In this document: positions 10,783 to 53,471 of the stretch, piece after piece | Layout of the letters: the number at the start of each line of letters is the position of its first letter | How positions within the stretch are numbered: the stretch's first letter is position 1 | Source: Chitinophaga sp. LS1 | Lineage (GTDB): Bacteria; Bacteroidota; Bacteroidia; Chitinophagales; Chitinophagaceae | Length of the DNA: 64,000 nt | Direction: 5' to 3' | Assembly: GCF_034274695.1 (NCBI RefSeq) | Contig: NZ_CP128362.1 | Span: 5,520,501 to 5,584,500 of the forward strand | Translations under genes and position numbers: made by a program | Notes under the pieces: model-generated | What the model saw: only the letters and a program-made list of their open reading frames with translations | Database searches by the model: none | What the model was told of the DNA's origin: nothing

Positions 10783-10940
10783 AAAAAGGGGCGTCTCAAT
10801 ACTTCGGGACGCCCCTTTTTTCTGAAAATGGGTTTTCATTCCCCGTTGGTGAATTCCCACTTTCATGAATGTTTATTCGGGTACCTTTTCGTACATGCAA
10901 TTCTGATGGCCTTCCTGTTACTTACGATACAGCCCCTTAT
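10783..10940 (+). repeat. Dispersed terminator-bearing repeat, copy A
   Basis: It starts with an 8-bp stem (GGGGCGTC/GACGCCCC, 10788-10815) and a T-run, then the conserved core TCTGAAAATGGGTTTTCATT, GTTGGTGAATTC, TTCATGAATG, TTCGGGTACC, GTACATGCAATTCT and ATGGCCTTCCTGTTACTT. The same order of blocks occurs at 14711 (minus strand), 24797, 51789 and 53391. This copy terminates nrdBA. An apparent 75-codon frame across it is a by-product of the repeat. Confidence 0.8.
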
Positions 10941-11179
10941 TTTTTTCACGTTTATGAATATATGTTTATATTTGCCCACATATTTCCTTTCTATCATTTA
11001 GCCTAACCTTCTTACTGAGCTGTATGCGAACTTAATGAGCAATGAAATTGCCTGTTATGCTCCTATGCGAATAAACTGCCACACCTTTTCATTTACCACT
11101 TCAAAATCATTTGAATCGCGCATAAAACGGTAAGGGCATCGTCATTTATTTAATCACCATATTTTAAAATTGAGTAATT

Positions 11180-11311
11180 ATGAAAAAGTACAGCGTTCAT
11201 TTGTTGGTAGCATTATTTGTAATAGCAATTAGTTTTACTAGTTGTGCACCACATGGTGGTCCACACGGCGGCGGTGGTCGTCATGGTGGTGAGCACGGTC
11301 ATCAGCGTTAA
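11180..11311 (+). CDS. Gly/His-rich mini-lipoprotein (43 aa)
   Basis: ATG after GAGTAATT, then MKKYSVHLLVALFVIAISFT, a signal peptide with lipobox FTSC at Cys22. The mature part is only about 22 residues, nearly all glycine, histidine and charged residues, with five PHGG/RHGG/GHQ-type steps. Six histidines in so short a tail could bind metal ions; that is an inference. A hairpin terminator follows 8 bp after the stop, supporting a real, separately transcribed gene. The protein should be anchored in the envelope. No named family is recognised. Confidence 0.65.
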   Translation: MKKYSVHLLVALFVIAISFTSCAPHGGPHGGGGRHGGEHGHQR

Positions 11312-11318
11312 TGATATG

Positions 11319-11358
11319 AAGGGCTGGAATGCTTAATTTAATAAGCGTTTCAGCCTTT
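11319..11358 (+). terminator. Intrinsic terminator of the mini-lipoprotein gene
   Basis: AAGGGCTGGAATGCTTA pairs with TAAGCGTTTCAGCCTT through G-U wobbles around a short A/T loop. No long T-run follows, so efficiency is uncertain. Confidence 0.45.
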
Positions 11359-11468
11359 ACAAAGTATATAGCGAAACTCCTGCACAGACCAGCCGCTAAT
11401 ACCAGTAATACAATTTGCATTTGTTTACTTTGTGGCCATGCCGGCTAACGGGCAAAGCAATAATTTCA

Positions 11469-11996
11469 TCAGGCTTTTTTATAATGCAGTTGCGTTAATC
11501 CTTTTTCAAAATGTTTTACAGAAATAAGATCCAGTAGTTGTTCCCCACGACCATCCTGGAATAATTTTGTCCCGCTACCCAGCAGTATGGGAATAATTGA
11601 AATCACAAATTCATCAATTAAATTGTCTTGTAATAATGCATTGACGATTTCCGCACCCCCATCGCAGAAGATATTTTTCCCTTCCTCCTTTTTCAATCTG
11701 GTAACCAGTTCCGGCAGCGAACCTGTATAGAAATGAGTGCTGCCAATTGTCGCCCGTGGCGTTTTTGTGATCACATAAGTTGTTTTATCCGCATGATGGA
11801 ATTCCGGTACATGGCTCAGTATCCAATCATATGTTTTTCTACCTATGATCACGGTGTCGATGGTATTGATAAACTCCGCATAGCCATAGTCTTCGCCTTC
11901 CTTTTCTACAATGGAGAGAAAGCTCAGGTCATCATCGGGTTGGGCTATGTACCCATCAACACTGGTAGCTATATACAGAATTGTTTTTCTTTCCAT
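11469..11996 (-). CDS. Dihydrofolate reductase family protein (RibD C-terminal type)
   Basis: A 175-residue protein of the RibD C-terminal/DHFR-like fold. The N-terminus TILYIATSVDGYIAQPD is the usual first strand and loop, VIIGRKTYDWI is the NADPH-contacting segment, and NIFCDGGAEIVNALL is the conserved glycine-rich turn. Stand-alone members are common in Bacteroidota. They are presumed NADPH-dependent reductases of unknown substrate and are not proven folate or riboflavin enzymes. It is divergent from the LysR gene at 12101, with about 100 bp between them, but there is no evidence that LysR controls it. Confidence 0.85.
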   Translation of the reverse strand: MERKTILYIATSVDGYIAQPDDDLSFLSIVEKEGEDYGYAEFINTIDTVIIGRKTYDWILSHVPEFHHADKTTYVITKTPRATIGSTHFYTGSLPELVTRLKKEEGKNIFCDGGAEIVNALLQDNLIDEFVISIIPILLGSGTKLFQDGRGEQLLDLISVKHFEKGLTQLHYKKA

Positions 11997-12100
11997 GGGT
12001 TAAAAATTACATGCAATTGCATATTACTAAAATTATGTGGAATAATGATATTGATCATTGTCAATCGTTGCGTGTAACTTAATTGTAACTTGCTTCCAGG

Positions 12101-12979
12101 ATGGAACATAGACAGCTTAAATATTTTCTGAAGGCACAGGAATTGCTCAGCTTTACTGAAGCAGCACAACAGCTGCACATCAGTCAGAGCACCCTGTCAC
12201 AACAGATCAAACAACTGGAAATGGAACTGAATACCCCGCTCTTCAACCGTATCGGCAGACAGATCACGTTGACGGAAGCCGGCACCCTGTTTACAGATTA
12301 TGCCAAGCAGGCGGTGAAGAAAGCGGAAGACGGGCTGCAGATGATCAGGGACCTGAATAACCTGCATATCGGTACGGTCACGGTAGGAGTGGCGTATAGT
12401 CTGAAGAACTTTTTCACAAAGGCACTCATACAGTTTGCCGCTACTTTCCCACAGATCAACCTGAAGGTAGTATACGACTCCTCCCTGGGATTGTTCGACC
12501 GCTTGGACCAGTTCGAACTGGATTTCAGCCTGGCCTTTCACGAAGGGACTGATGTACCCCATTTTGCTTACCAGGAGTTGTTTAGCAGCCCCATGGTCGT
12601 GGTGGCCAACAAACAATCAAAGATTGCGAAAAAGAAGATCCTTTCTCTGGATGAAATCTGCCAGCTGCCACTGGTCATTGCGACAAGGGGATACAGCAGT
12701 AGTCATATTATCAGTAAGACCTTTACGAGATATGGCCTGGACCCGAAATTTTCCATTGAAGTCAATGATATCCCCACAGTATTAGACCTCGTCAAAACAG
12801 GTAAGTGGTACAGCATCGTCGTACAAACGAGTGTGATTGACAAGGACCTGGTGACGATCCCTATTGATGAAAAAACACTGGTGCGCAATACAAATATTAT
12901 CTCACTGAAGGAAGCCTACGAAACCAGGGCTATAAAAGAATTCAAAAAGATCCTGATCGGTCTTAAGCATGAGGATTAG
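12101..12979 (+). CDS. LysR-family transcriptional regulator
   Basis: A 292-residue LysR regulator. Residues 1-60 form the winged helix (HRQLKYFLKAQELLSFTEAA onward, with SQSTLSQQIKQLE as recognition helix). Residues about 90-290 form the periplasmic-binding-protein-like effector domain. The C-terminal domain resembles CynR/CatR-type regulators, but the inducer cannot be assigned. The promoter lies in a short region shared with the divergent reductase gene. Its 3' end overlaps the convergent GNAT gene by 17 bp. Confidence 0.9.
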   Translation: MEHRQLKYFLKAQELLSFTEAAQQLHISQSTLSQQIKQLEMELNTPLFNRIGRQITLTEAGTLFTDYAKQAVKKAEDGLQMIRDLNNLHIGTVTVGVAYSLKNFFTKALIQFAATFPQINLKVVYDSSLGLFDRLDQFELDFSLAFHEGTDVPHFAYQELFSSPMVVVANKQSKIAKKKILSLDEICQLPLVIATRGYSSSHIISKTFTRYGLDPKFSIEVNDIPTVLDLVKTGKWYSIVVQTSVIDKDLVTIPIDEKTLVRNTNIISLKEAYETRAIKEFKKILIGLKHED

Positions 12980-13481
12980 TTAATACTTTCTCATATGCTT
13001 TGCGGGCTGAGCCCCTGAAAAATACTTCACCGCAATATACATATCCGCTTTTTTCGAAGGCGCCCATCATCTTTGGGTTGTCGAAATTCGTATCTGCCCT
13101 TACACTGGTAATGCCCTGCTGCAAGGCCCATTCATCTATGTGTTTAAGCATGATTTTGGAGAGCCCTTTACCCAGGTGCTTTTCAGAGATCGCTACACGA
13201 TGGTATACCACGAAATCGCCATCAGTAAGCCATTTGCCTTCTATGGCTGCATAAGCCGGTTCGTCATTGATAAGCATGGCTACATAGCCAAGAATTTCAT
13301 CGCCTTCAGTCAACACATAGCCATGCCCCTTTTCGATGTCTTCTTTTACCACGGCCGGATTCGGATAGCCATCCTGCCATTGTCTGCTGCCGTCTTCTTT
13401 TCTTCGTTGAATGGCCTGTGCCAGAATGCCCCAGATGGCCGATTGTTCTTCTAAGCTAGCTTTTCTGAAGTTGTAGTTCAT
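12963..13481 (-). CDS. GNAT-family N-acetyltransferase
   Basis: A 172-residue single-domain GNAT protein. The acetyl-CoA loop is seen as VAISEKHLGKGLSKIMLKHI (R/Q-x-x-G-x-G/A-like, here HLGKGLS), followed by an ITSVRADTNFDNPKMMGAFEKSGY segment (only its start is motif-defining) typical of motif B. The acceptor may be a small molecule or peptide and cannot be predicted. The start overlaps the end of the upstream MFS gene by 26 bp, so the two are translationally coupled. The 3' end overlaps the convergent LysR gene. Confidence 0.88.
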   Translation of the reverse strand: MNYNFRKASLEEQSAIWGILAQAIQRRKEDGSRQWQDGYPNPAVVKEDIEKGHGYVLTEGDEILGYVAMLINDEPAYAAIEGKWLTDGDFVVYHRVAISEKHLGKGLSKIMLKHIDEWALQQGITSVRADTNFDNPKMMGAFEKSGYVYCGEVFFRGSARKAYEKVLTNPHA

Positions 13482-14631
13482 ATGATCTTATATTCCAGAT
13501 TAATACGAGATTGATTAATAATAGTGCACACAGTCCACACAGGTAAATAGTAGTGCCGAATTGCTGAATCATAAACCCACCTATAAAAGGCGCTGCCGCC
13601 TGCGCGATAAGCGGCATACGGGCCAGCCGGCCTATGACCAGCGGGTACTGATCAGGACCAAAGATCGCTAAAGGTAAAGTGCCCCTCAGCACAGATCGCA
13701 TGCCGTTTCCAACCCCAAAGATAATTATTCCTATTGTAGCAAGGCTGGGGTGAAAGAAGAGAAGGCCGATACCGAGTAGCATAGCGAAGGTAGAAATGAA
13801 CGCCATTTCAACCGCGCTGCGGTTGGCGATCATGAGTTCCAGTGTACGGGCAGCTGATTGACTGGGGCCGAGAAAGGCCACGATCATCAATATAACAGAC
13901 ATCTCAATTTTTTTAGCACTAAGGATGTCGATAAGGTGTACCACTACACCAGTAGTGATGATGGCGCCGATGGTAAAGTTGGCAAGAAGGAGGTAAAAGA
14001 TCCTGGAACGGAAAGAAACACTGTCCCTTTGGGTGATCGTTTCTTTTATGATTGTTGGCCGGAATATGTATTTATGAATAGGATAGATCCCCATCATTAG
14101 GATCCCTGCAAATGTGAAACAGGTATGCCGCCAGCCCAGTTCATGAAGTAAAAACGAAGTAAATGGCCATGATATAGAAGGCGCCAGACTGGCTATCAGT
14201 GTGACCCATACAATCACCTTTTTCGCCTTGCTGCCATATAGCTTTCCCAGCGAAGCAAAGAGGGCATCGTACAGCCCCATGCCCATACCTACACCAATAA
14301 CAACCCAACCCAGTACAAACAGCAAATAGCTTTGTGCGGATCCAATCATAATAAGCCCTATGCCCATTACAATCCCCGTATAATGCAGGATGAAGTTCTG
14401 ATCGTATTGCTGGATCATCTTCCCGATAGCTGGCAATAGCAAGCCCGAAATCAACAGCGATAAAGATAAACACCCGTATACCTGCTGGTACGACCAGCCC
14501 GTTTCCTGCATAATCGGTCCGGATAATACGGATAAAAGAAAGTAAGACCCGCCCCACAAAAGTATCTGTGACAAGCCTGATAGCAACAATACAGTATAAG
14601 GTGGCTTTGAATTTTCGATAAGCTGTTCCAT
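13456..14631 (-). CDS. Major facilitator superfamily transporter
   Basis: About 391 residues with twelve hydrophobic segments. The typical MFS loop between helices 2 and 3 is only weakly kept, and GVGMGMGLYDALFASLGKLYG resembles the helix 5 region of OxlT/monocarboxylate-type MFS members. The substrate is unknown. The frame starts at a TTG (14643), but the ATG at 14631 is preferred. The neighbouring GNAT gene overlaps its 3' end, so this may be an efflux and acetylation pair acting on the same compound, which is speculative. Confidence 0.85.
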   Translation of the reverse strand: MEQLIENSKPPYTVLLLSGLSQILLWGGSYFLLSVLSGPIMQETGWSYQQVYGCLSLSLLISGLLLPAIGKMIQQYDQNFILHYTGIVMGIGLIMIGSAQSYLLFVLGWVVIGVGMGMGLYDALFASLGKLYGSKAKKVIVWVTLIASLAPSISWPFTSFLLHELGWRHTCFTFAGILMMGIYPIHKYIFRPTIIKETITQRDSVSFRSRIFYLLLANFTIGAIITTGVVVHLIDILSAKKIEMSVILMIVAFLGPSQSAARTLELMIANRSAVEMAFISTFAMLLGIGLLFFHPSLATIGIIIFGVGNGMRSVLRGTLPLAIFGPDQYPLVIGRLARMPLIAQAAAPFIGGFMIQQFGTTIYLCGLCALLLINLVLIWNIRSYELQLQKS

Positions 14632-14710
14632 AAACAGCTGCAAAGGTCTGAAGTTTCCTGGATCGGCAAAACGTTATTTTTCAATCCAAACAATCGAATA
14701 AACCGATTTG

Positions 14711-14873
14711 AAAAAAGGGATGTACCAAGTAACAGGAAGGCCAGGAGAATGACATGTACGAAAAAGGTACCCGAATAAAACCTTCATGAAAGAGAGAATT
14801 CACCAACGGGGAATGAAAACCATTTTCAGAAAAAGGAGGCGCCTCGAAGTATTGAGACACGCCCCCTTTTTTC
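14711..14873 (-). repeat. Dispersed terminator-bearing repeat, copy B
   Basis: Reading the minus strand it has the same order as copy A: a G-rich hairpin (14873-14836) followed by T5, then CTGAAAATGGTTTTCATT, GTTGGTGAATTC, TTTCATGAAGG, TTCGGGTACC, TTCGTACATG and GGCCTTCCTGTTACTT. It lies downstream of the serine-hydrolase-fold gene and has the orientation of that gene, as expected of a terminator-linked element. It differs from copy A mainly in the hairpin. Confidence 0.8.
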
Positions 14874-14950
14874 GCACAAATATTTTTAAGAAGCAAACAA
14901 ATAGATAGTTGTAAGAAATGACGTAGAAAAAGAACAAATACTTGTAGATG

Positions 14951-16270
14951 CTATTTAGCACTCAAAATATCCTTCACACGTCCATTCTTTGGATCCAGCT
15001 CCATTACTTTTTTATAATTGATCTCAGCATTCGCTTTGTCACCTATCTGCGTATACGCATTGCCTAAATATTCATATGCTATAGCTGAAGTTGGAAATAG
15101 CTTTACATTCAGTTTAAACAACGCTATTCCAAACCCCGTTTGCTTGCTCTGCATAAAAATATCACCATTGGCATTTAAAAAATCAGCATCAAATTTTCTG
15201 CCCTCCTGTTCACAAAGTGAACGCACATTTTGCTCTACATAAGGCATTCCATTCCCCGTGATCCACTTGTACAGCGTTAGCTGCGTAGGCGGTGTAAATG
15301 GTTTATATGTCCCATCCTTCATCACTGAAATTACCCGTGGCGCCAACCTATCAGCCGACTCACCCATATTACACAGTATCACATAACTATATCCATCTTC
15401 TGTATACCCGATCGCCGATGTCCACGTAGGCAACCTACCCGTCATATGCATTGTGAGCGGATAACTATAATGGGAGGGAAGCAACTGCTTCCGCTTAGCC
15501 TCCACAAATTTCAGCATATCATCCAGCGTAATATACACCCCCTCATCAGGATGCCCGTTTTCAATATCGTCCACATTGGTTTTGGTCCCATCAGGATTGA
15601 CGATCTGGCCATACGCACGGTTAGTGGCCGCCAGTTTCTCTGCCCTGGTATAAGCGATCGAAGTCATGCCCAGTGGGGTCCCGATGCGTGTACGCACCGC
15701 ATCGCCATAAGGCTGTCCGGTAATTTTTTCTATCACCGCCCCCAGTACCACATAAGCGGAATTGGAATAAGCCTCGCCCGTACCCGGGTTAAATAATAAC
15801 GGCTGCCAGGAAATGATCTGCAACAGGTCGTTGAGCTTAAAATCCGTCTTCCTGATCTTCGCATAATCCGGACTATGCTCATAATCCCCTAATCCGGATC
15901 GCATGGTCAGCAATTGAGCGACTGTGATCGCCTTGCCCGTTTCAGGCGGAAAAATGTTCACAAACTTGTCTACAGATGCCAGTTCATCCAGTTTTCCCTC
16001 GCTGATCAGTTGGCGGATAATTTCTTCAGTGAATTGTTTGGTAAGATAATTTGTATTGTACAGGGTATTGGCAGTCAATGGTCTTTTGGTAGAGTTCTCA
16101 GAAAAGCCGTTTTGCTTGCCGTAAAAAACAGCCCCATCTTTCAGAATCACCGCCTGTCCTGAGAACATGCCCGACTCTATCGCCTGCCGGAATAATTGTG
16201 TGAAGGGTTGTGCATAGGTCGGAATAGTCAGTATCATAGCCACCCCCAATGAAAATATGGCCTTTTTCAT
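14951..16270 (-). CDS. Beta-lactamase/DD-peptidase-fold protein with TPR tail; likely pseudoenzyme
   Basis: 439 residues: signal peptide (1-20), a class C beta-lactamase/serine hydrolase fold (about 25-330) and a C-terminal region with a TPR-like repeat (SAIAYEYLGNAYTQIGDKAN). In active members the first motif is S-x-x-K in the context GSVTKQFT. Here the same place reads NYLTKQFT, so the nucleophilic serine is Tyr75 while Lys78 remains. The second motif YSN is intact (EAYSNSAY). An acylating activity is therefore unlikely; a binding or regulatory role is possible. The protein should be periplasmic. It lies 30 bp after the FCD regulator gene and may be in its operon. Confidence 0.8.
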   Translation of the reverse strand: MKKAIFSLGVAMILTIPTYAQPFTQLFRQAIESGMFSGQAVILKDGAVFYGKQNGFSENSTKRPLTANTLYNTNYLTKQFTEEIIRQLISEGKLDELASVDKFVNIFPPETGKAITVAQLLTMRSGLGDYEHSPDYAKIRKTDFKLNDLLQIISWQPLLFNPGTGEAYSNSAYVVLGAVIEKITGQPYGDAVRTRIGTPLGMTSIAYTRAEKLAATNRAYGQIVNPDGTKTNVDDIENGHPDEGVYITLDDMLKFVEAKRKQLLPSHYSYPLTMHMTGRLPTWTSAIGYTEDGYSYVILCNMGESADRLAPRVISVMKDGTYKPFTPPTQLTLYKWITGNGMPYVEQNVRSLCEQEGRKFDADFLNANGDIFMQSKQTGFGIALFKLNVKLFPTSAIAYEYLGNAYTQIGDKANAEINYKKVMELDPKNGRVKDILSAK

Positions 16271-16300
16271 AGGTTTTTTGGGGGTAAATGTACGTTATAT

Positions 16301-16954: not shown

Positions 16955-16959
16955 GTCAG

Positions 16960-18414: not shown

Positions 18415-18467
18415 ATTCCAATTTCTGAGAGGAAGAGGCAGGATGTATCTTCAATAAATGAAACTCC

Positions 18468-18535
18468 TGAGAATCGCATAAATGGATCCGAATTTTAAAG
18501 AGCGTGTATCAAAAGTAAGATACACGCTCTTCAAT
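18468..18535 (-). terminator. Intrinsic terminator after ilvC
   Basis: AGAGCGTGTATC pairs with GATACACGCTCT (18499-18530) around AAAAGTAA. Adjoining sequence (TGAGAATCGCATAAATGGAT) resembles the conserved module beside the terminator at 7097. In the ilvC direction the stem is followed by TTTAAAATT. The hairpin is symmetric and could work both ways. Confidence 0.6.
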
Positions 18536-18540
18536 ATATT

Positions 18541-20022: not shown

Positions 20023-20166
20023 TGCTTCTTAAAGTATTAATTAAAGTCTAAATGTTAAGTCCGATGTCGTGTCATCTGATGACAAAGTTATCAGGATTTT
20101 TATTATTGTCAATACCCATTTTATATTTCGGGAATTATTTCAAAGAGACCCGGAATTTTTTAGATA

Positions 20167-20283
20167 TTATTTAATTAGGCTACCCTTTCTGCCTGATTTT
20201 CGAATGATGAGGCTGTAACGGAAGTATACCACGAACCCGATCAGCAGCCATCCAATAAGGCGTAACCAGTTTTCTATGCCCTT
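20167..20283 (-). pseudogene. Relic of an amino-acid permease (C-terminus only)
   Basis: On the minus strand 38 codons between stops read KGIENWLRLIGWLLIG, then FVVYFRYSLIIRK, and a lysine-rich end. This is the last transmembrane helix and tail seen in APC-superfamily (YfnA/CAT-type) amino-acid permeases. The rest of the gene is missing; an in-frame stop precedes the fragment at 20284. About 20 bp further on, an ATG followed by AAAAACGGAAACTTC could be the former start, suggesting an internal deletion. It lies 145 bp upstream of ilvC in the same direction, and a former link with branched-chain amino-acid uptake is only a guess. Confidence 0.55.
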
Positions 20284-22187: not shown

Positions 22188-22191
22188 CCGG

Positions 22192-24180: not shown

Positions 24181-24377
24181 AATGCGTATTCCGCTCTTTT
24201 GTAGCAGGGGGGCCAGGCATATTCTTCCGCACTGTATTCCCCGATCAGGGAAGAATTGCATTGCAGGGTGTGGGCTTTAGCAGATGGATATAATCGAAAC
24301 CAGTTTTATCACTCATTACTTGAAATTGATAAAAATTGCTAATTTGCGGCACCCTAATAGCCGGGGGACTTACACTT

Positions 24378-24785
24378 ATGTGCAAAGACCAGATTACCAT
24401 TTTACTGGTAGATGATGATATTGAAGACCAGACATTACTTTCTGAAGCCATTCATAAAATAGCGCCAGCTATTTGTATTAAATTATTCAATAACGGGTCA
24501 GAGGTTTTACATTATTTATCTTCCAGGGAGGATGATACTCCTTGTTTAATAGTATTGGATTACAACATGCCAGGCATCAATGGCCTGCAGGTGTTGGAGC
24601 GGATAGGAGAGATCCACAGGCTCACCAGCATACCAAAAATAGTTTGGAGCACGTCCAATTCTCATCACTTTAGAACACAATGTTTGAACGCCGGAGCATT
24701 CAGGTATATAGTAAAGCCGCAAAATCTGCAGGACCTGAACCAGATTGCAGCGGATATTATTGATACTTGTGAGCGGGCGGCTTAG
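24378..24785 (+). CDS. Single-domain response regulator
   Basis: 135 residues forming a stand-alone CheY-like receiver. Acidic residues VDDD (11-14), phosphoacceptor D61 in LIVLDYNMPG, and lysine in YIVKPQ are all present. There is no output domain, so it should act by protein-protein contact or in a phosphorelay, as the Rcp1-like receivers of Bacteroidota do. The open frame reaches back to 24336, but ATG 24378 fits the domain start. A terminator-bearing repeat follows after 11 bp. Confidence 0.9.
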   Translation: MCKDQITILLVDDDIEDQTLLSEAIHKIAPAICIKLFNNGSEVLHYLSSREDDTPCLIVLDYNMPGINGLQVLERIGEIHRLTSIPKIVWSTSNSHHFRTQCLNAGAFRYIVKPQNLQDLNQIAADIIDTCERAA

Positions 24786-24796
24786 GTTATTCAAAA

Positions 24797-24886
24797 AAAG
24801 AGCGGGGCACCTCAAAGTGCCCCGCTCTTTTTCTGAAAATGGTTTTCATCCCAGTTGGTGAATTCACTCTTTGATGAAGGGTTTAA
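24797..24886 (+). repeat. Dispersed terminator-bearing repeat, copy C
   Basis: A 14-bp perfect stem (AAAGAGCGGGGCAC/GTGCCCCGCTCTTT, 24797-24830) is followed by TTTCTGAAAATGGTTTTCAT, GTTGGTGAATTCACTC and GATGAAGGGTTTAAT. It matches the first half of copies A, B and D but ends where the convergent DUF2911 gene stops. Oriented as a terminator for the response-regulator gene. Confidence 0.75.
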
Positions 24887-40196: not shown

Positions 40197-40267
40197 ACTT
40201 TAAGGTCACCAAAAGGGCACCTCATTATCCCTGGGATAATGAGGTGCCCTTTTGGTGACCTTAAAGT
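40197..40267. repeat. Perfect 35-bp inverted repeat (long hairpin)
   Basis: The arm ACTTTAAGGTCACCAAAAGG continues for 15 more bases to ...ATCCC and is followed by one T and the exact reverse complement, giving a 71-bp palindrome. It lies between convergent genes and probably terminates both, but a 35-bp stem without mismatch is far longer than needed. Just beyond it, CCCTTTTGG recurs at 40269-40277, as though part of the arm had been copied. Confidence 0.8.
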
Positions 40268-42720: not shown

Positions 42721-42723
42721 AAT

Positions 42724-44214: not shown

Positions 44215-44571
44215 AAACCATTTTTACAAAACTACTAAAATCAAAGAATGTCAAACAGCCAAAACTATTTTCACATCATTAAACTAACATTAGAAAAATA
44301 CGCCACCCTAATTATGTATAGATGAGGCAGTTACTGGCTTTTAGCTTATGGATGCTTAAAATATAACATATAAAAATTATTAAATACAATGATTTCCTGT
44401 TAAATTTGAACGATTATCCAGCATTCCCTGCCTATGATTAAAAAATACACCTTTCCTTGTTTTCTAAGGAACAAGGACTTTTTCATCTTCCCGGATTGTA
44501 TCATCCCGGACTCCTTATCCCAGAATAAATGATGCGGCTGGCATTGTTGTGTTTCACTTAATTAATTGAAG
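44215..44571. other. Upstream region of the giant adhesin gene
   Basis: No gene is seen. The right part holds two small inverted repeats, CCTTGTT/AACAAGG near 44456-44475 and CCCGGAT/ATCCCGG near 44491-44509. These could be operators or leader hairpins of the adhesin transcript. No clear TAnnTTTG element sits near the start. Confidence 0.4.
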
Positions 44572-47500
44572 ATGAAAAGGTTTTTGTTTTTATTTGTTTG
44601 TCTGTGTGTGTTCTCTGAGATTGTCAGCGCACAAACTATTTACATGAATATTCCTGATACTGTCTGCATGTCTACCAACAATGGGACATCCGATCAGGCT
44701 AAGTTTACGAGTATCACTGCTTACCTTGCGACCGGACAAACCGGTAGTACCGTCTGGACCATCCAAACACCCGGCGGCACCGATGTGGACTATTCGATCC
44801 TGTACTCGTCGAGCACGTCTGCGATCAAGGCAAATCAACTCACATCGAACGCGCTCACGCTCCAGTTTCTCAACGCAGGTACCTATATCTTTACGGCAAA
44901 TATGACGTACAGCAATGGTACCGTGTACACAAAAAGAGATACATTGGTTGCTATAGATTGTACCATGTCCACCTGTAATGGTGGCAACGCTACTATGCCA
45001 GGTTTCTCTGAAGACTTTGGCACACTGGCCAGTAATGCCAGTAAGAAAGAATATTCTCCATCCACTGCGATTACGTATAACTACGATGGTTCTTCTACAA
45101 TCGGTATGGCTACAAACGGTTACGCTATTTCCAACACTACGCATTGGGCGGCTGACTGGATCACCACATCCGATCATACGGGTAGTAACAGAGGTGGTAT
45201 GCTGGTAGCCAATGCCGATGCTGACACACGTACCTTCTTCACCAAGGAAGTGAGTGGTCTTTGCAGAGGTGCTGTATACAATTTCAGTGCATGGCTTATC
45301 AACGTAGATAGTTCCATTACCCTTACTAAGAACTGTCCGGATTATAAATATGCCGGTGTCACCTTCCAGATCCTGAATGCGGTCAATACCAACCAGGTAT
45401 TAGGAGAGTTTAAAACCTATGCCGTATCTATGAACCTGGCTGGCAGACAATGGCAGCGATATGGTGGTACGTTTACTGTACCTACCAGTGTGACCGATGT
45501 AATTGTACGTATTAAGAATAGCTATCCCGGTGGTTGTGGCAATAACATCGCCATCGACGATATTGAATTTACCTATTGTAGCCCTGTCATCACCGCATCC
45601 ATCGAAGGTAATTCCGAGAGCCTGAGAGAAGTATTGTGTGAAGGCGCACCTACTATTCTGACTTCTTCTTATACCCCTGCAACTTATTTTTCAAATGCCG
45701 AGTACCAATGGGAAATGTCTGACGATGGTGGTGTCACCTGGTTCGACGTACCATACGGTACCGCTACCAATGATACTCTTGTCATCGCTGAGGGCGAACT
45801 CACCGGCACTAAAGATGTTGCCGCTGATTACTACTTCCGTGTACGCATCTTCGAAAATGGTTCTTCTTCCGAAACCTGTGCCGCGCCATCTTCATCTGTG
45901 AAACTCACCATCCTGCCTATGCCACAACTGACGCTCACCAAGAGCCAGGTATGTGCCGGTGCTACTGTAGACCTGCAGGCATCAGGTGGCTTTGATGAAT
46001 TTAAATGGAGCGATACGACTTATGTAGGTCCGACCCGTTCTATTACATTGTTACGAGATACTTCTATCACCGTATATGGTTATGTATATTATGGCGTAGA
46101 TGGTGGTAAGACCTGTGTGGACTCAAACAGTGCGTCTATCAAAGTGGATGATGAACCAATCGTGGAGATCGGAGCTTCTGCCACTACATTGTGTGTGGGT
46201 AGCAGGGTCACATTATCTGTGAATGAGATCCTGGGTACTACCGCAGATTCTATCTTCTGGTACAAAGGTGTACCAGGTACCGGTCAGTTGCTCTCCGACT
46301 TTACAGGTCAGACTTCTATGGTCTACAATACAGAGACCATAGCAGATAGCGTGTTCTATGTAAGGGTCGTCCAAAGTAGTTGTGAGGTCACGTCGGCGCC
46401 GTTCTACCTGCACCTCACGGAGATCCCTGTACCTGATCCCGGTACAAGTCAATTTGCTTGTGTATCCAACAATTCAACGGGTACCTTCACTATGAACCGC
46501 ACGCAGTTAACAGGTACTACCGGCGCCTGGCAGATCATCGGTATCGAAGGCCCTGGAATTTCAGGGGCAACCGGCGATATCAATTTTGATGATTACGTGA
46601 GCATGAATAAAAAGAACCCGAAAGCGACTGTGACACTGACCAATGTTGGTACCACCGTATACCTGCAATGGAAGGTGACAGCCAGCAACAATGCTGCATG
46701 TATCGGTTATGCCTATGATACCCTTACCTGGATGTCAGAAGGAACACGTGCTTATGTAGATAGCGCCATGACACAGTGTGGTACTGCCAATGTGTTTACC
46801 ATGGCTGCCAATGAGCCGAATGTAGACCTCACGGATGAATTCGAAGAAACGGGCACCTGGACCTTATTGTCCGGTACAGCTACCATTGCAGATACGAATG
46901 CCTATAATACGACGGTGACAGTACCCGCAGGTAATTATCAGGACGTGGTATTACAATGGAGCATTTCGAACAAGGCAGCATGTGGTATTACCTATGATAC
47001 AGTCACCTTACATTATAAAGATATACCAACAGCGACCGTGAGTCCTGTTACTACCTGTGCATCTACAGGTACATTTGATCTGAACCCTTCGGCGATCACC
47101 GGTGGTCCGACCTATTATGCAATCACCAGTACGATGAGTGGGTTTACAGCAGTACCGACTACGGCGATCACTGCATGGCCCGTTGCGGTAAGCATCCCGA
47201 CAACGACGCCGGCAGGTACATATACTTTCCAGCTGACCATCAGCAATGATAGTCTGGGTTGTACAAACACCATTCCTTTCACTGTAAATGTTCAATCTGG
47301 TTCTGTAGATCCTACAGGCGTAACCGTAGGTGCTCCAATCATCTGTGAAAGCGGTACCACTACGCTGACAGTAGAAGGCGGTAGTCTGGCGAAGAATGCA
47401 GATGGTACAGACGCAGCCAGTTGGGTATGGTATGCAGGCGGTTGTGGTACAGGTACGGCAATAGGTACCGGCAGTACCATCACAGTACCGGTTACAGCAA

Positions 47501-50500
47501 CTACTACTTATTATGTAAGAGCAGAAGGTACAGCTACCTGTGCAGGTTCTAACTGCGCAAGCGGTATCGTCACCGTATATGACAAACCAGCTGATGCCGA
47601 TGCTGGTGCAGATGCAAGTCACTGTAGTGACTCTGTGTTTGTGATGAGTGCAAATGCACCATCCATCGCAACCGCAACGGGTGCGTGGACAGTCGCCAGC
47701 GGTACTGCAAGAATTGCGGATACCACCAGCAACACAACTACGGTATATATTAAACCGGGTAATACCGCCACCCTGACATGGACCATTACCAATGGTGCAT
47801 GTGTTACTTCAGATAATGTAACCATTGCCAACTACGCATTGCCGGGTACTACTAATAAAGGTGTAGACACCATCAGTCAATGTAATAATACATCGTTCGT
47901 CATGTCAGCAACAGGTACCGGTAACTGGAGTTTCCTGCCGGGAACTGCGGCTACAGTGAGCGATGCCACCAGTCCAACCGCGACTATCACACTGCCTGCA
48001 GGTGATACGGCGACTGTAATCTGGAATGCTACGAATGGCTTGTGTACAAGCGCTGACAGCACCTTCCTGCGCAACTATGCTATTCCTGAAGATGCCAATG
48101 CCGGCGCTGCCCAGACCCATTGTAACGATTCGCTCTTCCACATGGCAGCTGCGACATCTGCTTACCAGGGTACCTGGTCTGTGCTCAGTGGTACGGCTAC
48201 CATTGCCGCTGCTGACCTGCACAACCCAACTGCCAATGTTATTGTATTAGTAAATACAACCGCTACCTTACAGTGGGTCCTGACCAATGGCTCCTGTACG
48301 GGTAATCCTGCAACTGTTACCTTAAGCAATATCGGTGGCGTATTGGGTAATGCCATCTCTGCCAACCAGGTGCTGTGTGCATCAGAAACACCGGCTACCC
48401 TGACTGGTACTACCACCGTAAGCGGTGGCGATGGTACCTACGCTTACCAGTGGCAGATGAGTACTACGAATGCAACCACCGGTTTCTACAATGTGACTAC
48501 CGGTACCGGCGGCACTACGGCTGCTTATACACCAGTGGCACTCACTGCTGATACCATCTGGTTCAGAAGAATCGTGACCTCCGGTTGTAGCGGTAGTTCT
48601 ATCAGTAATGTCGTGAAACTGCAACGTATCAGTACACCACCGGTAGTGGTATCAGTGCCGGCTTCTACCAATGCCAGCTGTATGCCGGGCAATGACTACA
48701 CCACGCTCTTTGGCACACCGGTGTTCAGTCATGCACCATATACAAATGAAACACTGACCGTTACCTACACAGATAATACGACTACACCAGATGTCTGTAC
48801 CACAATCATTATGCGCACCTGGACAGCGGTAGATCGTTGTGGGCTGACTGCTACCGCACAGCAAACCATTATAGTGAAGGATACTACCGGACCGGTGTTC
48901 ACAACGACCGCTCCTGCAAATGTGACGGTAAGCTGTGATAACATTCCGGCAATAGTTTCCCTGACTGCAAATGATCTCTGCTCCGGTACATTTACAGTAG
49001 CGCCAATCGAGCAAAGGGTAGACATGCCTGGTCAGTGTACCAATAATTATTACCTGATCCGTAAATGGGTAGCGGTAGATAATTGTGGTAATCCAAGCGA
49101 TACCCTGAAACAAACTATCACCGTGAAGGATACCACCGGACCTGTGTTCGATGGTACTGCTCCGGCGAATATTACGGTGGATTGTGACAAGCTGCCTGCT
49201 GCAGCAACCATGACCGCTACAGACAATTGTACAGCAGGGACCATTACGGTAACGCCTGTAGATACCAGGCAGAATATTTCTGGTAGCTCCTGTACCAATA
49301 CTTACCAGATCACCCGTACATGGACGGCGATAGACGCCTGTGGTAATATCTCCGCCCTGAAACAGATCATCACAGTTGTAGATACAACGAAACCTGTCTT
49401 CTCTGTAATGCTGAGAGATACCACTGTGAATTGTGACCAGGTACCTGCTGTTGCATCCGTAACAGCAACTGATAATTGTACGGCAAATGTGACGGTATCC
49501 GTGAACCAGACCAAAGTATTCCTGAGCACTACCTGCGCCAGCAATTACAGCCTGACACGTACCTGGACAGCGACAGATGGTTGTGGTAACACGGCCACTA
49601 TGAAACAGGTGATCACTGTACAGGATACCACCAGACCCGTATTCACCGTAGCGCCTCCGGGTGATACAACGGTGAACTGTGATGCTGTACCAGCTACACC
49701 ATCCAATGTGGTGGCTACTGATAATTGTAGTACCGTGAAGATCAGCTATTCTCAATCCAAAGCAACCATCAGCGGTGCCTGCGCAAACAACTACCAGCTG
49801 ATCAGAACATGGGTTGCGAAAGATGAATGTGGTAATACTAATACATGGAAACAAACTATCACGGTACAGGATACCACCAGACCCGTGATTGGTACAGCTC
49901 CTGCTGATGCCATCGTATCCTGTGGCGGTACCATCCCTGCAGAAGCTACCTTGTATGCAAGTGATAATTGCGATGCCAACTTCCCTAAGCGCGCTACCAT
50001 GACCACAGATCCTTATACAGTGGATGTATGTAATGGTTATACCATCACAAGAAGATGGAATGTGACAGATGCATGTGGTAATGCAGCGATCGAAAAAGTG
50101 CAGGTGATCACCATCACCGCATGTCCGAAACCACAGCTGGATACGACCATGCCTGTGAACTGTTCTGACAATTCGAAATTTGCACTGCTGCTGTTGAATA
50201 AGGTCAATAAACCTAAATTCACGCTGCAAAGTGTAACGCCGGCCAGCGCTGTTACTGCGCCGCTCACACAAACCAGCAATGTGTTTGACCTGAATGGTGC
50301 TACAAAAGCTACGTTTGTGGTAACAGACGGCGTAACGGGGTGTGTATCTGATCCGGTGACGTACAACCTGCGGTATGTAGAAAAGCCAACAGTGAACCTG
50401 GGTAATGATACTGCGATCTGTACAGGTAATACGATTACCCTGGATGCAGGTGTAGACAATGCCAGCAACGGATATGGTATCGTATGGAGTACAGGGGTAA

Positions 50501-51723
50501 CAACACAACAGATCACGGTGGCTGCAGGTGGTACTTACTATGCAACAGTGACCAACAGTGGTTGTGCGGCAACAGATTCTATTAAAGTAACTATCAATAA
50601 TCCACCTACCGTAGCGATCCGCGATACCACTATCTGTGAAGGCAGCCCCGTAAAACTGAATGCTTATATACAGGGCGCTACCTACGCATGGAGCACCGGT
50701 GATACCGGCCCTTCTATCACAGTCAATACGACTGGTACTTATAATGTAGACGTATTCCTGAATGGCTGTACCGTGACAGATGATGCAACTGTAAATGTAG
50801 CCACGCCGCCAGCTATAACATTGACTTCAGATACTGCGGTATGTGCTGGTCAGAGCGTAACATTGGAAGTAGAACCGGATGGAGGTACAGCGGTATGGTC
50901 AGATGGATCACTCACAAATACCATCAGCGTATCGAGACCTGGTGATTATTGGGTGACTGTAACGAAGAATAGTTGTGTGGTGACAGATACAGTGAGCGTG
51001 ACCAACAAGGGAGATGTAGGACTGGATCTGGGCGTAGATAAGGATATTTGTTCAGGAGGTTCTGTAATACTGAATGCAACAAATGAAAATGTAATTTCTT
51101 ATCTATGGAATGATGGTACGACCGATCCGATCAAGGAAGTAAACACACCTGGTAAATATATCGTGACGGTGCTGGACAAATACTGTAACCTGACATCTTC
51201 TGATAGTATCAATGTAACGGTAGCGGGTATAGGTACCTTCACACTGGGTAATGATACGACCATTTGTGAAGGTCAGGTACTGACCCTGAAAGTAAGCACG
51301 GGTACAGGTAATAGTATTAAGTGGCAGGATGGTGCGACTACTTCCAGGTATGTAGTAACAAAGACTGGTTATTATACTGCGACTATTTATAATGAATGTG
51401 GTTCAATGACGGAAGGTATTACAGTCAATTATAAGGCTTGTAATGAGCAAACAGTGATGGTGAATGCATTCACACCAAATGGAGATGGTAATAATGATTA
51501 CTTCAGACCGGGCGTGAGCGGTACGATGATCGATTATGATCTGAGTGTGTTCAACCGCTGGGGTGTGCTGATCTATAGCTCCAAAGAAGCAGGTACCGGA
51601 TGGGATGGACGATTTAAAGGAATGCTGGTGGAGGAAGGTACTTATTTATGGATAGTGAATTATAGAAAAGCAAGTGGTGGAGAGAAGTTGACACTGAAAG
51701 GAAATGTGACAGTCATTAAATAA
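44572..51723 (+). CDS. Giant repeat adhesin with type IX sorting domain (gliding-motility-associated C-terminus)
   Basis: 2383 residues from ATG 44572 (a TTG at 44566 is also in frame). Signal peptide (1-21, ending VSAQ). Next come a domain of lectin-like type (GFSEDFGTL...AIDDIEF, about 145-335), several Ig-like and repeat domains, and three or four GTW-type repeats around 695-1260. Four to five HYR-like repeats of about 83 residues follow (about 1436-1847; DTTGPVF, VDNCGN, TWTA). Then come five PKD-like repeats of about 72 residues (from about 1943; LGNDTTICEG). The last 85 residues are the CTD: NAFTPNGDGNNDYFRPG, FNRWGVLIY and GTYLWIVNYR. The protein is exported by the type IX system and probably acts in surface adhesion or gliding. 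The repeat plan favours length variation. Confidence 0.9.
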   Translation: MKRFLFLFVCLCVFSEIVSAQTIYMNIPDTVCMSTNNGTSDQAKFTSITAYLATGQTGSTVWTIQTPGGTDVDYSILYSSSTSAIKANQLTSNALTLQFLNAGTYIFTANMTYSNGTVYTKRDTLVAIDCTMSTCNGGNATMPGFSEDFGTLASNASKKEYSPSTAITYNYDGSSTIGMATNGYAISNTTHWAADWITTSDHTGSNRGGMLVANADADTRTFFTKEVSGLCRGAVYNFSAWLINVDSSITLTKNCPDYKYAGVTFQILNAVNTNQVLGEFKTYAVSMNLAGRQWQRYGGTFTVPTSVTDVIVRIKNSYPGGCGNNIAIDDIEFTYCSPVITASIEGNSESLREVLCEGAPTILTSSYTPATYFSNAEYQWEMSDDGGVTWFDVPYGTATNDTLVIAEGELTGTKDVAADYYFRVRIFENGSSSETCAAPSSSVKLTILPMPQLTLTKSQVCAGATVDLQASGGFDEFKWSDTTYVGPTRSITLLRDTSITVYGYVYYGVDGGKTCVDSNSASIKVDDEPIVEIGASATTLCVGSRVTLSVNEILGTTADSIFWYKGVPGTGQLLSDFTGQTSMVYNTETIADSVFYVRVVQSSCEVTSAPFYLHLTEIPVPDPGTSQFACVSNNSTGTFTMNRTQLTGTTGAWQIIGIEGPGISGATGDINFDDYVSMNKKNPKATVTLTNVGTTVYLQWKVTASNNAACIGYAYDTLTWMSEGTRAYVDSAMTQCGTANVFTMAANEPNVDLTDEFEETGTWTLLSGTATIADTNAYNTTVTVPAGNYQDVVLQWSISNKAACGITYDTVTLHYKDIPTATVSPVTTCASTGTFDLNPSAITGGPTYYAITSTMSGFTAVPTTAITAWPVAVSIPTTTPAGTYTFQLTISNDSLGCTNTIPFTVNVQSGSVDPTGVTVGAPIICESGTTTLTVEGGSLAKNADGTDAASWVWYAGGCGTGTAIGTGSTITVPVTATTTYYVRAEGTATCAGSNCASGIVTVYDKPADADAGADASHCSDSVFVMSANAPSIATATGAWTVASGTARIADTTSNTTTVYIKPGNTATLTWTITNGACVTSDNVTIANYALPGTTNKGVDTISQCNNTSFVMSATGTGNWSFLPGTAATVSDATSPTATITLPAGDTATVIWNATNGLCTSADSTFLRNYAIPEDANAGAAQTHCNDSLFHMAAATSAYQGTWSVLSGTATIAAADLHNPTANVIVLVNTTATLQWVLTNGSCTGNPATVTLSNIGGVLGNAISANQVLCASETPATLTGTTTVSGGDGTYAYQWQMSTTNATTGFYNVTTGTGGTTAAYTPVALTADTIWFRRIVTSGCSGSSISNVVKLQRISTPPVVVSVPASTNASCMPGNDYTTLFGTPVFSHAPYTNETLTVTYTDNTTTPDVCTTIIMRTWTAVDRCGLTATAQQTIIVKDTTGPVFTTTAPANVTVSCDNIPAIVSLTANDLCSGTFTVAPIEQRVDMPGQCTNNYYLIRKWVAVDNCGNPSDTLKQTITVKDTTGPVFDGTAPANITVDCDKLPAAATMTATDNCTAGTITVTPVDTRQNISGSSCTNTYQITRTWTAIDACGNISALKQIITVVDTTKPVFSVMLRDTTVNCDQVPAVASVTATDNCTANVTVSVNQTKVFLSTTCASNYSLTRTWTATDGCGNTATMKQVITVQDTTRPVFTVAPPGDTTVNCDAVPATPSNVVATDNCSTVKISYSQSKATISGACANNYQLIRTWVAKDECGNTNTWKQTITVQDTTRPVIGTAPADAIVSCGGTIPAEATLYASDNCDANFPKRATMTTDPYTVDVCNGYTITRRWNVTDACGNAAIEKVQVITITACPKPQLDTTMPVNCSDNSKFALLLLNKVNKPKFTLQSVTPASAVTAPLTQTSNVFDLNGATKATFVVTDGVTGCVSDPVTYNLRYVEKPTVNLGNDTAICTGNTITLDAGVDNASNGYGIVWSTGVTTQQITVAAGGTYYATVTNSGCAATDSIKVTINNPPTVAIRDTTICEGSPVKLNAYIQGATYAWSTGDTGPSITVNTTGTYNVDVFLNGCTVTDDATVNVATPPAITLTSDTAVCAGQSVTLEVEPDGGTAVWSDGSLTNTISVSRPGDYWVTVTKNSCVVTDTVSVTNKGDVGLDLGVDKDICSGGSVILNATNENVISYLWNDGTTDPIKEVNTPGKYIVTVLDKYCNLTSSDSINVTVAGIGTFTLGNDTTICEGQVLTLKVSTGTGNSIKWQDGATTSRYVVTKTGYYTATIYNECGSMTEGITVNYKACNEQTVMVNAFTPNGDGNNDYFRPGVSGTMIDYDLSVFNRWGVLIYSSKEAGTGWDGRFKGMLVEEGTYLWIVNYRKASGGEKLTLKGNVTVIK
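48871..50107 (+). repeat. HYR-like coding repeats inside the adhesin gene
   Basis: Units of about 250 bp, each coding for about 83 residues, recur four to five times. Shared codons spell VDTT(G/R)PVF, VNCD, ATDNC and TWTAxDxCGN. Near-identical DNA at unit borders (GATACCACC, AATTGTGGTAA types) makes recombination between units likely. Confidence 0.7.
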
Positions 51724-51749
51724 AAAAGGAAGAGGGTGTAAATAAATGC

Positions 51750-51960
51750 ACTGAGCATTATCTACCTCTATTAGGTATTCGAATAAGAAAAGGGGGCGTC
51801 TCAAAACTTCGGGACGGCCCCTTTTTCTTTGAAATGGTTTTCATTCCCGTTGGTGAATTGCCTCTTTCATGAATGTTTTATTCGGTTACCTGAATTCTCG
51901 TACATGCAATTCTCATGGCCTTCCAGTTACTTAGGATACATCCTCTTTTCTTTGAAAATA
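51750..51960 (+). repeat. Dispersed terminator-bearing repeat, copy D, with 5' module
   Basis: The first 37 bases (CACTGAGCATTATCTACCTC, then TTAGGTATTCGAA) match the module at 7097. From 51789 follow the hairpin GGGGGCGTC/GACGGCCCC with T-run, then TGAAATGGTTTTCATT, GTTGGTGAATTG, TTTCATGAATG, TTCGGTTACC, CGTACATGCAATTCTCATGG and CCTTCCAGTTACTT. It terminates the adhesin gene and lies next to the IS110-family element. It is the fullest copy in the window. Confidence 0.8.
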
Positions 51961-52167
51961 GTTCGTCCAGGCCATAATTTGATATGACTCTATAGGATTA
52001 AAATTTTCTTTTCGTGCTTATAGCAACAATCGTTTGTACTTAGAGTCTTAAATCAGTTTTTTCTACAGGCTGAAAAAGCACCAATAAAAGGTCGATTTTT
52101 GTAACTTAGTAATCTTATTGAGATGGGGGTAATGCCTCAAGCTCGCGCAGGCGTCTGAGATAATTAT
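51961..52167 (-). ncRNA. Non-coding end of the IS110-family element; candidate bridge RNA region
   Basis: About 200 bases between repeat D and the transposase stop contain no frame. IS110-family elements carry a structured guide (bridge) RNA in a non-coding end, on the 3' side of the transposase gene in the IS1111 group. Since the 5' side here has only about 50 bases, this 3' segment is the only place large enough. Stem-forming sequence is present (GCAGGCGCAGATAAAT/ATCTGCGCCTGC type at 52146-52183). Assignment is by position and not by recognised structure. Confidence 0.3.
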
Positions 52168-53342
52168 TTATCTGCGCCTGCTTTCTTTTTTTAGCCACTC
52201 CTGATTATCAGGTTCCATATATGGCACTCTATTTTTGAGTATAAAATAAGCGGCAATTAGGATTTTGTGTGAAATTGCAATAAGTGCTCGTTTTTTGCCT
52301 CTTCGTATACTCAAAGTATAATATTTTCTTTTCAGATAAGTATCTTTCGTATGTGCTGCAGCCCATGCTGCTTCCACGAGTGCGGTTTTAAGGGATCTGT
52401 TGCCATGATTGATTCTTTCACTTTTCTTTTTTCCGGCACTTTCATTATTACCAGGACATAAACCACACCAACTAGCCAAATGATGCTGATTAGGGAACGC
52501 ATGCATATCTGTACCTATTTCGGCTAAGATGGCGGTAGCTGTTTGTTTTTGTACTCCGGGAATAGTCTGAAGTAATTTTACTTCTTCCTCCCATTTTTTA
52601 AGTACTGATCTATACGGTTATCCACCTGACCAAGTAGGTCATTTAGCTGTAAAATAACAGTTTTAGACAGGCTGAGCATAAAACGGTGATGCTCATTAAG
52701 ATGGCCTTCTAATGCAAGAATAAGCTCTTGTTTTTTGATTTTGAGCCTACCTTTTGCCAAATTGGCCAATATCATAGGATCCTGTTCTCCTTCAATAATG
52801 GCAGTGATCATTGACCAGCCACTTACACCGAATACATCACTGACTACAGTGCTCAATTTGATATTGGCTGTCTCTAAAATGTTCTGTAACCGGTTATATT
52901 CACTGGACCGCTGTCCTATTACTTTACGTTTGTATCGGTACAATTCCCGTAATTCGCGAGTGTATTGCGGTGGAATAAAACTTCCCTTTAGTAGCCCGCT
53001 TAGCAATAATTTTGCAATCCAGGCACTGTCATTGCGATCGGTCTTATGCCCCGGCACATATTTAATATGCCGGGCATTGACCAGAATAAGTTCAAAGTGA
53101 GGTTCCAGTATATTAAAAACAGGCTTCCAGTAAACCCCCGTGCTCTCCATTGCGACATGTGTAATGCCGGATTCTTCAAGCCAAGCTACCAGGTCCCTAA
53201 GTGAACTTGTGAAAGTGCTAAAAGTGCGGGTTTGTTCTTCCAACCCATTTCCTCTGATGGTGGCTACTACATTCTCCTGGTGAACATCGAGGCCACAGCC
53301 GCGACTCACAACCTGTTCAAAACTGATATGTGATTGTTCCAT
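52168..53342 (-). mobile_element. IS110-family transposase, split by a frameshift
   Basis: Two consecutive frames encode one IS110-type DEDD transposase. Part 1 (53342-52578, 254 aa) has the RuvC-like fold: CGLDVHQENVVA (first Asp), VAMESTGVYWKPV (Glu), and HKTDRNDSAWIAKLL (Asp pair). Part 2 (down to 52168, last ATG-started piece 52506) has the Transposase_20 domain with IPGVQKQTATAILAEIG and ASWCGLCPGNNESAG, whose serine is catalytic in IS110 enzymes. The frames join by a -1 shift at AAAAAA (about 52591-52596, reading TTA AAA AAT GGG), giving about 391 residues. It is either a decayed copy or one expressed by slippage. IS110 elements lack terminal inverted repeats, so the ends are not fixed here. 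Confidence 0.85.
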
Positions 53343-53390
53343 GGTAGTACTTTTGTCGAAGGTACCACCATTTTCATAGTCGTTTGTGAA

Positions 53391-53471
53391 CCCGGTTCAT
53401 GAGGGTTTTTTCTGAAAATGGTTTTCATTCCCCGTTGGTGAATTCCCTCTTTCATGAAGGTTTTAATTCGG
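53391..53471 (+). repeat. Dispersed terminator-bearing repeat, copy E (short)
   Basis: A small stem AACCC/GGGTT and T6, then CTGAAAATGGTTTTCATT, CCCCGTTGGTGAATTCCCTC, TTTCATGAAGG and TTTTAATTCGG. It matches the first half of copies A, B and D. It lies on the far side of the IS110-family transposase from copy D in the same orientation, so that element is bracketed by two repeat copies. Confidence 0.75.

Follow-up and report, generated by a model that had tools for sequence, protein, structure and literature searches.

A short repeat scattered between the genes of Chitinophaga sp. LS1 is, we believe with good confidence, a non-autonomous 52-nucleotide (52-nt) miniature (a miniature inverted-repeat transposable element, or MITE) of an RNA-guided, IS1111-like insertion sequence (IS) of the IS110 family, whose parental guide addresses the T-tracts of transcription terminators. 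The repeat was met in a window of 64,000 nt (the whole stretch analysed: contig NZ_CP128362.1 of assembly GCF_034274695.1, positions 5,520,501 to 5,584,500 of the forward strand), in which a first-pass annotation had described five copies of a dispersed intergenic repeat carrying its own terminator hairpin. Our reading is based on the ends that the unit shares with resident IS, on its placement directly behind terminators, on sites that are filled in one place and empty in another, and on the covariation of guide, donor and target sequences among IS relatives.

A 52-nt unit behind host terminators

All five copies are present in the window, and four of them come, as had been noted, after a co-oriented open frame. 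What the five have in common is a 52-nt core, TGAAAATGGTTTTCATTCCCCGTTGGTGAATTCCCTCTTTCATGAATGTTTT, with a mean column identity of 86% in an alignment of 31 copies. In the source genome (8.67 Mb in a single contig of the genus Chitinophaga, called G000 where genomes have to be told apart) the first 16 bases of this unit occur at 101 places with at most one mismatch, against none for a reversed-pattern control, and a sequence-model search gives at least 151 unit matches, a count to be set beside the ten or so copies that the first-pass annotation had taken as the least to be expected. The repeat is therefore real, and its limits are not the ones first drawn. Our placement analyses rest on the 150 matches listed, which fall into 105 same-strand clusters, 19 of them with multiple units; among the matches listed, tandem arrays reach 9 units in G000, and they reach 10 in G014, which appears to be the genome of [Flexibacter] sp. 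ATCC 35208. The unit has no conserved RNA structure (the consensus fold is worth -1.5 kcal/mol, with a weak hairpin and no covariation), and nothing in the whole window matches Rfam above a gathering score.

An IS110 copy lies to the left of 15 of the 105 first units, and the other 90 were used to study placement, one of these (5396065) being the end of the element IS-B described below and not a unit. In 75 of the 90 a hairpin of -7 kcal/mol or lower runs up to the T-tract that precedes the unit (78 with the limit set to -5). This compares with 673 of 12,320 intergenic positions drawn at random, or 673 of 4,340 if those with a T-run are counted, and with 28 of 450 upstream sequences shuffled with the T-tract kept. 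These hairpins are diverse and mostly unrelated among sites. Moreover, 79 of the 90 first units follow a co-directional open frame, at a median distance of 64 nt from the stop, and 3 overlap an open frame of at least 100 aa, the frames coming from a simple caller with no gene annotation; placement relative to gene ends is thus far from the random one that had been named as speaking against the repeat. The terminator hairpin beside the unit is a host feature lying outside the repeat, since the unit starts directly after the T-tract of whichever terminator is present.

The 'long copies' of the earlier description are a second terminator repeat, occurring with and without the unit. Its blocks TTCGGGTACC, GTACATGCAATTCT and GGCCTTCCTGTTACTT are parts of a sequence of about 120 bp with a hairpin of its own (GGGGGCGTCTC-GAGACGCCCCC) and a conserved downstream block, found at 17 places in the genome with up to three mismatches. 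By reading, a forward unit lies between this hairpin and ATTCGGG at 5 of the 17 places (L393, L394, L400, L402, L403), an inverted unit on the opposite side of the hairpin at two (L391, L399), a unit further downstream at one (L392) and no unit at eight (L395-L398, L401, L404, L406, L407), while one repeat is incomplete (L405). Three of the five window copies are units nested in this second repeat, which accounts both for the ordered set of blocks that had been seen and for the CTCAA.ACTTCG that the hairpins at 10788, 14866 and 51792 have in common; the statement that hairpin arms differ completely fails at these three.

In the window, copy 1 (10823-10874, plus strand) lies between the hairpin and T-tract of a second repeat, which serve as an intrinsic terminator on the host side (10788-10821, plus, -19.9 kcal/mol) after an open frame at 9071-10774, and the downstream block (TTCGGGTACC..GGCCTTCCTGTTACTT..CCCC-T run; 10875-10945, plus). 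Copy 2 (14777-14828, minus) has the same neighbours on the minus strand, namely a second-repeat hairpin and T-tract at 14829-14866 (-16.5 kcal/mol), after the open frame 14951-16270, and a downstream block at 14715-14776. Copy 3 (24834-24884, plus) stands behind an unrelated host terminator (24793-24832, plus, -23.5 kcal/mol) that follows a response-regulator gene at 24336-24785. Copy 4 (51828-51878, plus) is again nested, with a second-repeat hairpin and T-tract at 51792-51826 (plus, -18.8 kcal/mol), after the open frame 44566-51723, and a downstream block at 51879-51951 (plus) that ends in TTTTCT at the insertion point of an IS. Copy 5 (53413-53464, plus) adjoins that IS and has no gene terminator of its own, the 'AACCC' hairpin ascribed to this copy at 53391 being the end of the IS110-family element. 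Copies 1 to 4 rest on alignment and model match, copy 5 on a model match, and the downstream blocks on sequence comparison. What had been taken for one entity is in fact a mosaic of host terminators, a second terminator repeat, the putative IS110 miniature and one IS110 copy.

Ends shared with IS110-family elements

The IS beside copy 5, which we call IS-A (1.46 kb, window 51952-53411, minus strand, ends good to a few bases), is an IS1111-like member of the IS110 family. Its transposase has a DEDD domain and a Transposase_20 C-terminus and scores above the cut-off of NF033542, and its gene is followed by a long noncoding region (51954-52167 in the window copy, minus strand), as expected of the IS1111 subgroup. 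In the window copy the frame is interrupted, and domain matches place the N-terminal piece (DEDD_Tnp_IS110) at 52578-53342 and the C-terminal piece (Transposase_20) at 52168-52506, both on the minus strand. G000 has 16 copies of IS-A, and in 15 of them the left-end junction is against a unit, which supports the earlier suggestion that the repeat is a target for a mobile element; the other copy (L166) lies between a terminator and unit-free sequence, and two copies in a further genome, G046 (L269, L271), have no unit at this junction. On the terminator side, hairpins at or below -7 kcal/mol are found in 12 of 16 flanks in G000 and in 8 of 10 distinct flanks in G046, the window copy, at the T-run that closes a second repeat, being one of the four exceptions in G000. 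An IS-A end aligns to the unit with a score of 18, where the best of 5,000 shuffles gave 17 and the best of 6,078 window segments 15; as a unit-model match it is weak (E 0.007 for L313, about 0.23-0.25 in G046). The right end of IS-A terminates in CTATTTTCA. CT was considered as its core dinucleotide and ruled out, two empty sites reading CTTTGAAAAT and the right junction CTGAAAAT; TG was considered too, the unit's own second-repeat junctions point to the T-tract instead, and we claim no core. Four head-to-tail copies of IS-A, recurring about every 1,462 bp, lie at G046:C1:2111274-2116786, and the resemblance of their IS-IS junction to the expected circle junction is suggestive only.

The clearest likeness to the unit is in IS-B, which is present in a single copy in G000 and has an intact transposase frame of 385 aa (5396137-5397291). 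The end upstream of its transposase gene, ACCACTTTCATCCCCGTTGGTGAATTCCCTCTTTCATGAAGGTTTATT, matches the unit model with an E value of 1.3e-11 over positions 11-51. In the orientation of the transposase the unit consensus reads AAAACATTCATGAAAGAGGGAATTCACCAACGGGGAATGAAAACCATTTTCA and the IS-B left end AAACCTTCATGAAAGAGGGAATTCACCAACGGGGATGAAAGTGG, and the unit is composed of an IS left end (TTCATGAAAGAGGGAATTCACCAACGGGGATGAAA) followed by the last 9 nt or so of a right end (CCATTTTCA). In 9 of 11 TTTCA-ended elements we also find TGAAARN stretches of 6-9 bp that both IS ends have in common and that lie next to the donor block (2 in 20,000 in a permutation of the end repeats over all 21 IS tested), IS-B's own best end-to-end common stretch lying elsewhere in its left end. 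The TGAAAA-TGG-TTTTCA hairpin of the unit could then represent two such short subterminal repeats, joined after loss of the interior.

Because IS-B could of course have inserted into a unit, we looked for the unit sequence in other genomes, surveying 79 Chitinophaga genomes with filters stricter than those of the G000 search. Unit matches are listed in 8 of them, two of the same species: at least 82 in each of G000 and G014, 74 in G051, 70 in G046, 19 in G031, 5 in G077, and at least one in G065 and in G076. Close relatives of the IS occur in G000, G014, G046 and G065, with weak matches in G063 and G010. G065, probably C. ginsengisoli, is particularly telling. Its genome has a single unit match among the matches listed (E 1.9e-8), and within its IS locus the unit model finds one match, of 37.4 bits, at the left end of the IS, immediately ahead of where the transposase starts; since 37.4 bits gives E 1.9e-8 elsewhere, the match in the genome is most probably the end of its IS. 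An IS from a Cytophagaceae metagenome-assembled genome (L311) has a unit-model match at the same place in its left end (18 bits, E 8.6e-5), and a Fulvivirga IS (L363) has no unit-model match.

A candidate guide RNA

IS1111 elements are described as having a noncoding region downstream of the transposase gene and seekRNAs with a short region for each target strand (PMC11187229). From 80 IS relatives in named genomes we read 56, and 27 of these (L351 being left out as near-identical to L350) share with IS-B a motif 3' of the transposase, in which GAGCACG or a variant is followed by a guide and then by a T-rich stretch. The 7-9-nt guide matches the first flank bases at the 3' end of the IS, with a summed match of 224 (n=28) against a mean of 165 and a maximum of 192 in 20,000 permutations, even with L356 (at a contig end) and L342 (guide misplaced) counted as poor matches. 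The segment before the guide matches the IS's own left end (209, n=27; permuted mean 171.5, maximum 196), and in IS-B this donor segment is ACCAACGG, the GTTGGTG block already remarked upon as conserved. Arms around both segments pair in a long-range stem (475, n=27; permuted mean 335, maximum 410.5), to which RNAalifold adds 5 further pairs with changes on both sides; L356 is excluded from the stem and donor tests. A noncoding guide RNA with segments matching donor and target is a mark of the IS110 family, and at the level of sequence the candidate RNA has both segments, the target guide with one of its halves. In the window copy of IS-A the core of the candidate bridge or seek RNA is noncoding and 3' of the transposase (51986-52056, minus strand; tests made on the L313 copy of IS-A and on relatives), with a candidate target-guide segment AAAGAAAA at 52004-52011 (minus) that is identical to the terminator flank of the insertion site (read as TTTTCTTT on the plus strand), and a candidate donor-guide segment ACAAACGA at 52030-52037 (minus) that equals the IS left end at 53380-53387.

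The kind of guide goes together with the kind of site. Elements with AGAAAAAA guides (L311, L312, L316, L317, L363, L123) have a target-side hairpin of -5 kcal/mol or better in 6 of 6 cases, and of -7 in 5, whereas for other guides the figures are 3 and 2 of 19 (L330, L342 and L356 excluded). On the opposite strand the target guides AGAAAAAA and AAAGAAAA read TTTTTTCT and TTTTCTTT, and AGATGAAA is another natural 8-nt target segment. A first search for IS-end motifs among the 56 relatives gave a candidate end in 25 and a hairpin of -7 or better in 11; it was replaced by this guide-based comparison, which excludes relatives without the motif.

Among the sister IS, those with ATGAAA-type guides (L318, L329, L343, L344, L347, L350, L354, L367) seem to lie directly upstream of start codons. 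At 8 of 16 testable ATGs addressed by such guides an open frame of at least 60 codons begins (four reaching the contig edge), compared with 6 of 58 other ATGAAA occurrences in the same loci; a 17th locus, L330, is at a contig end. Separately, four distant IS110 relatives without the GAGCACG motif (L323, L325, L377, L378, which we take to be from Bacillales) have ends reading TTTTCA(TA/CA)G-AAAAA, with a hairpin resembling a terminator (-7 or better) next to them.

Empty and filled sites

Comparison of related strains gives sites in both states. Two IS-A insertions (L066, L077) have empty counterparts in G014 (L198 and L209 respectively), the unit at L198/L066 also showing point changes. For the unit itself, L242 in G014 is filled and L255 in G000 is empty, reading CAGCCTATTT-CTATTTAAAAGG, and L228 carries two units where L256 is empty, reading ACCCTC-TTTTAATTCGG; array size also varies between strains (L205 vs L097). 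These sites, together with the many copies, the ends of a resident IS and the lack of a transposase gene, support the mobile, MITE-like unit that had been among the original suggestions. Gain of the unit is favoured by the paralogous sites in the second repeat, of which 5 hold a forward unit in the T-tract and 8 hold none.

Three G014 unit sites without a partner came out of the first G000/G014 comparison, and one of them, L203/L254, was ruled out as a clean unit insertion, the whole terminator having been exchanged. The terminator found at L203, where the other strain (L254) has a different one, is of a further recurrent type (GAGGGTGTATC/GATACACCCTC arms and a GATACCTGATGGAG tail) seen also at L228 and L256, and perhaps at 7166-7191 and 63645-63670 of the window.

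Weighing the explanations

How might such a unit have arisen and spread? The interior between two short subterminal repeats would have been lost from a parent IS, so that the left end became joined to about 9 nt of the right end. The parental guide RNA would have one segment matching its own left end (the donor) and another matching the right-end flank (the target), and an RNA and transposase of the IS-B type would recombine a T-tract with the junction of right and left ends that a circle or tandem array contains. The product would be a T-tract followed by the unit once more, allowing arrays and nested insertions to accumulate, much like the IS-IS tandems of G046, and because the guide's address would be the T-tract of intrinsic terminators, IS and miniature alike would accumulate directly after gene ends. 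We infer that the guide RNA is made, and that the unit is mobilised in trans by the IS transposase, probably from circles or tandem arrays.

Several points weigh against this account. Transposition, circle and RNA are all deduced from sequence, and a circle of 52 bp is difficult to form. Two genomes rich in units, G051 (at least 74) and G031 (at least 19), have no close IS at E <= 1e-40, and their units may be relics or may have been moved by another helper; of the 23 sequences in G000 that match the IS-B transposase, none but IS-B itself has a frame that is both uninterrupted and of full length. The donor segment of IS-A, ACAAACGA, differs from the ACCAACGG of the unit, which in G000 is found in the single IS-B copy alone, and L313, the sole IS-A copy among the relatives compared (guide AAAGAAAA), has no target hairpin. 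The panel of relatives was picked for its visible motif, and the permutations are uncorrected for relatedness. The subterminal inverted repeats of 11-13 bp known from IS1111 were not found in the 21 IS, only shorter ones of 6-9 bp, and one half of the target guide was recognised, its second half not being found by eye. Finally, gain and loss of a unit are not separable in strain pairs, and empty second-repeat sites read TTTTTATTCGGG, without the C of TTTTTTC-TGAAAA, so that they do not pin down the exact crossover or the core dinucleotide, which seems to differ between IS-A and the unit.

The rival that survives best, and which we nevertheless think unlikely, is that the unit has a different origin, as an older repeat on which IS110 elements simply land, the similarity of ends being due to convergence or capture. 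The 15 of 16 IS-A copies directly against a unit are what this would lead one to expect, and REPs (repetitive extragenic palindromes) are already known as IS110 targets, for example of IS621 and ISPa11 (PMC1525189, PMC11208160). However, the unit sequence lies within IS-B-type elements of two Chitinophaga species, and more weakly within the Cytophagaceae IS; one of the two species, C. ginsengisoli, has no other unit match among those listed under the stricter filters; the donor segment of the IS RNA matches the unit; both sides of the unit are IS ends, in register; and L166, L269 and L271 have no unit beside the left-end junction.

A functional 3' signal, such as a termination enhancer or an RNA processing or binding site under selection beyond the terminator, appears very improbable to us. 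Strong placement after gene ends and conservation of the core do argue for it, and 3'-end processing had been one of the first proposals, but the unit lies past the T-tract and forms no RNA structure, its matches are listed in only the 8 genomes of the genus, it is polymorphic between strains, and it occurs in the tandem arrays already described. Hardly better, and if anything slightly worse, are the prospects of a scenario in which whole terminators were duplicated or gene-converted, with no transposition at all. There is indeed a second terminator repeat in which some units are carried, and the terminators of L203 and L254 do differ between strains; yet units stand next to many unrelated hairpins, and 8 of 17 second-repeat places are unit-free with a clean T-tract junction. 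A REP or bacterial interspersed mosaic element mobilised by a REP-associated tyrosine (Y1) transposase, finally, fits the size, copy number and intergenic location and can practically be dismissed, the unit's hairpin being weak and non-covarying and the genome having no PF01797 match at E <= 0.001, a threshold at which 5 of 14 control genomes were positive and a resident enzyme is excluded.

Two further features of the window stand apart from all this: an inverted repeat at 40197-40267, with perfect arms of 35 bp around a loop of 1 nt, and short imperfect repeats of 21-26 bp, some at 18-bp spacing, at 61550-61718 and 58035-58055.

Known systems and significance

That IS110 elements sit in REPs has long been known (PMC1525189), and the putatively terminator-addressed elements described here share with IS621, ISEc11 and ISPa11, which have bridge or seek RNAs, the DEDD and Transposase_20 protein, the noncoding region 3' of the gene, the donor and target segments, and repeat-specific landing (PMC11187229, PMC11208160). 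They differ in that the proposed address is a terminator T-tract, the subterminal repeats are only 6-9 bp long, and the unit, as their putative 52-bp miniature, gives at least 151 matches to the sequence model. REP-targeting members (IS621, ISPa11, ISPpu9, ISPpu10) likewise occur at a repeat that is scattered between genes (PMC1525189), whereas here the repeat consists of the IS's own ends. MITEPsy1 is also short, has no transposase gene and has ends in common with a resident IS (PMC3189936); unlike it, the unit has asymmetric IS110 ends. The DNA uptake sequences of Neisseria are repeats linked to terminators too, but they are 12 bp long and form inverted repeats within the terminator, while the unit lies beyond the T-tract (PMC3898611). 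Group IIC introns differ in being retroelements with no IS110-type enzyme. In the open-access literature (subscription journals, preprints and ISfinder were outside our search) we found neither an IS110 miniature nor a terminator-addressed IS110.

We are evenly divided over a wider proposal, namely that guides of this IS110 clade encode universal gene-boundary signals, some members addressing terminator poly-T and their sisters ATG-AAA start codons. Such an address would offer safe and abundant landing sites in any genome, and would have allowed a 52-bp element with only donor half-sites to turn into an RNA-guided MITE that targets itself and inserts into its own copies. If our account of the unit is true, it would furnish a natural donor of minimal size (52 bp) for a recombinase guided by RNA, together with a guide target that is a generic feature of gene ends instead of a single repeat family. 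It would also explain how such elements multiply without disrupting genes, and the relatives would provide a panel of natural guide-target and guide-donor pairs from which to work out bridge-RNA rules. There would be a warning in it as well, since what is conserved next to a terminator can be the remains of a transposon and no 3'-end signal at all.

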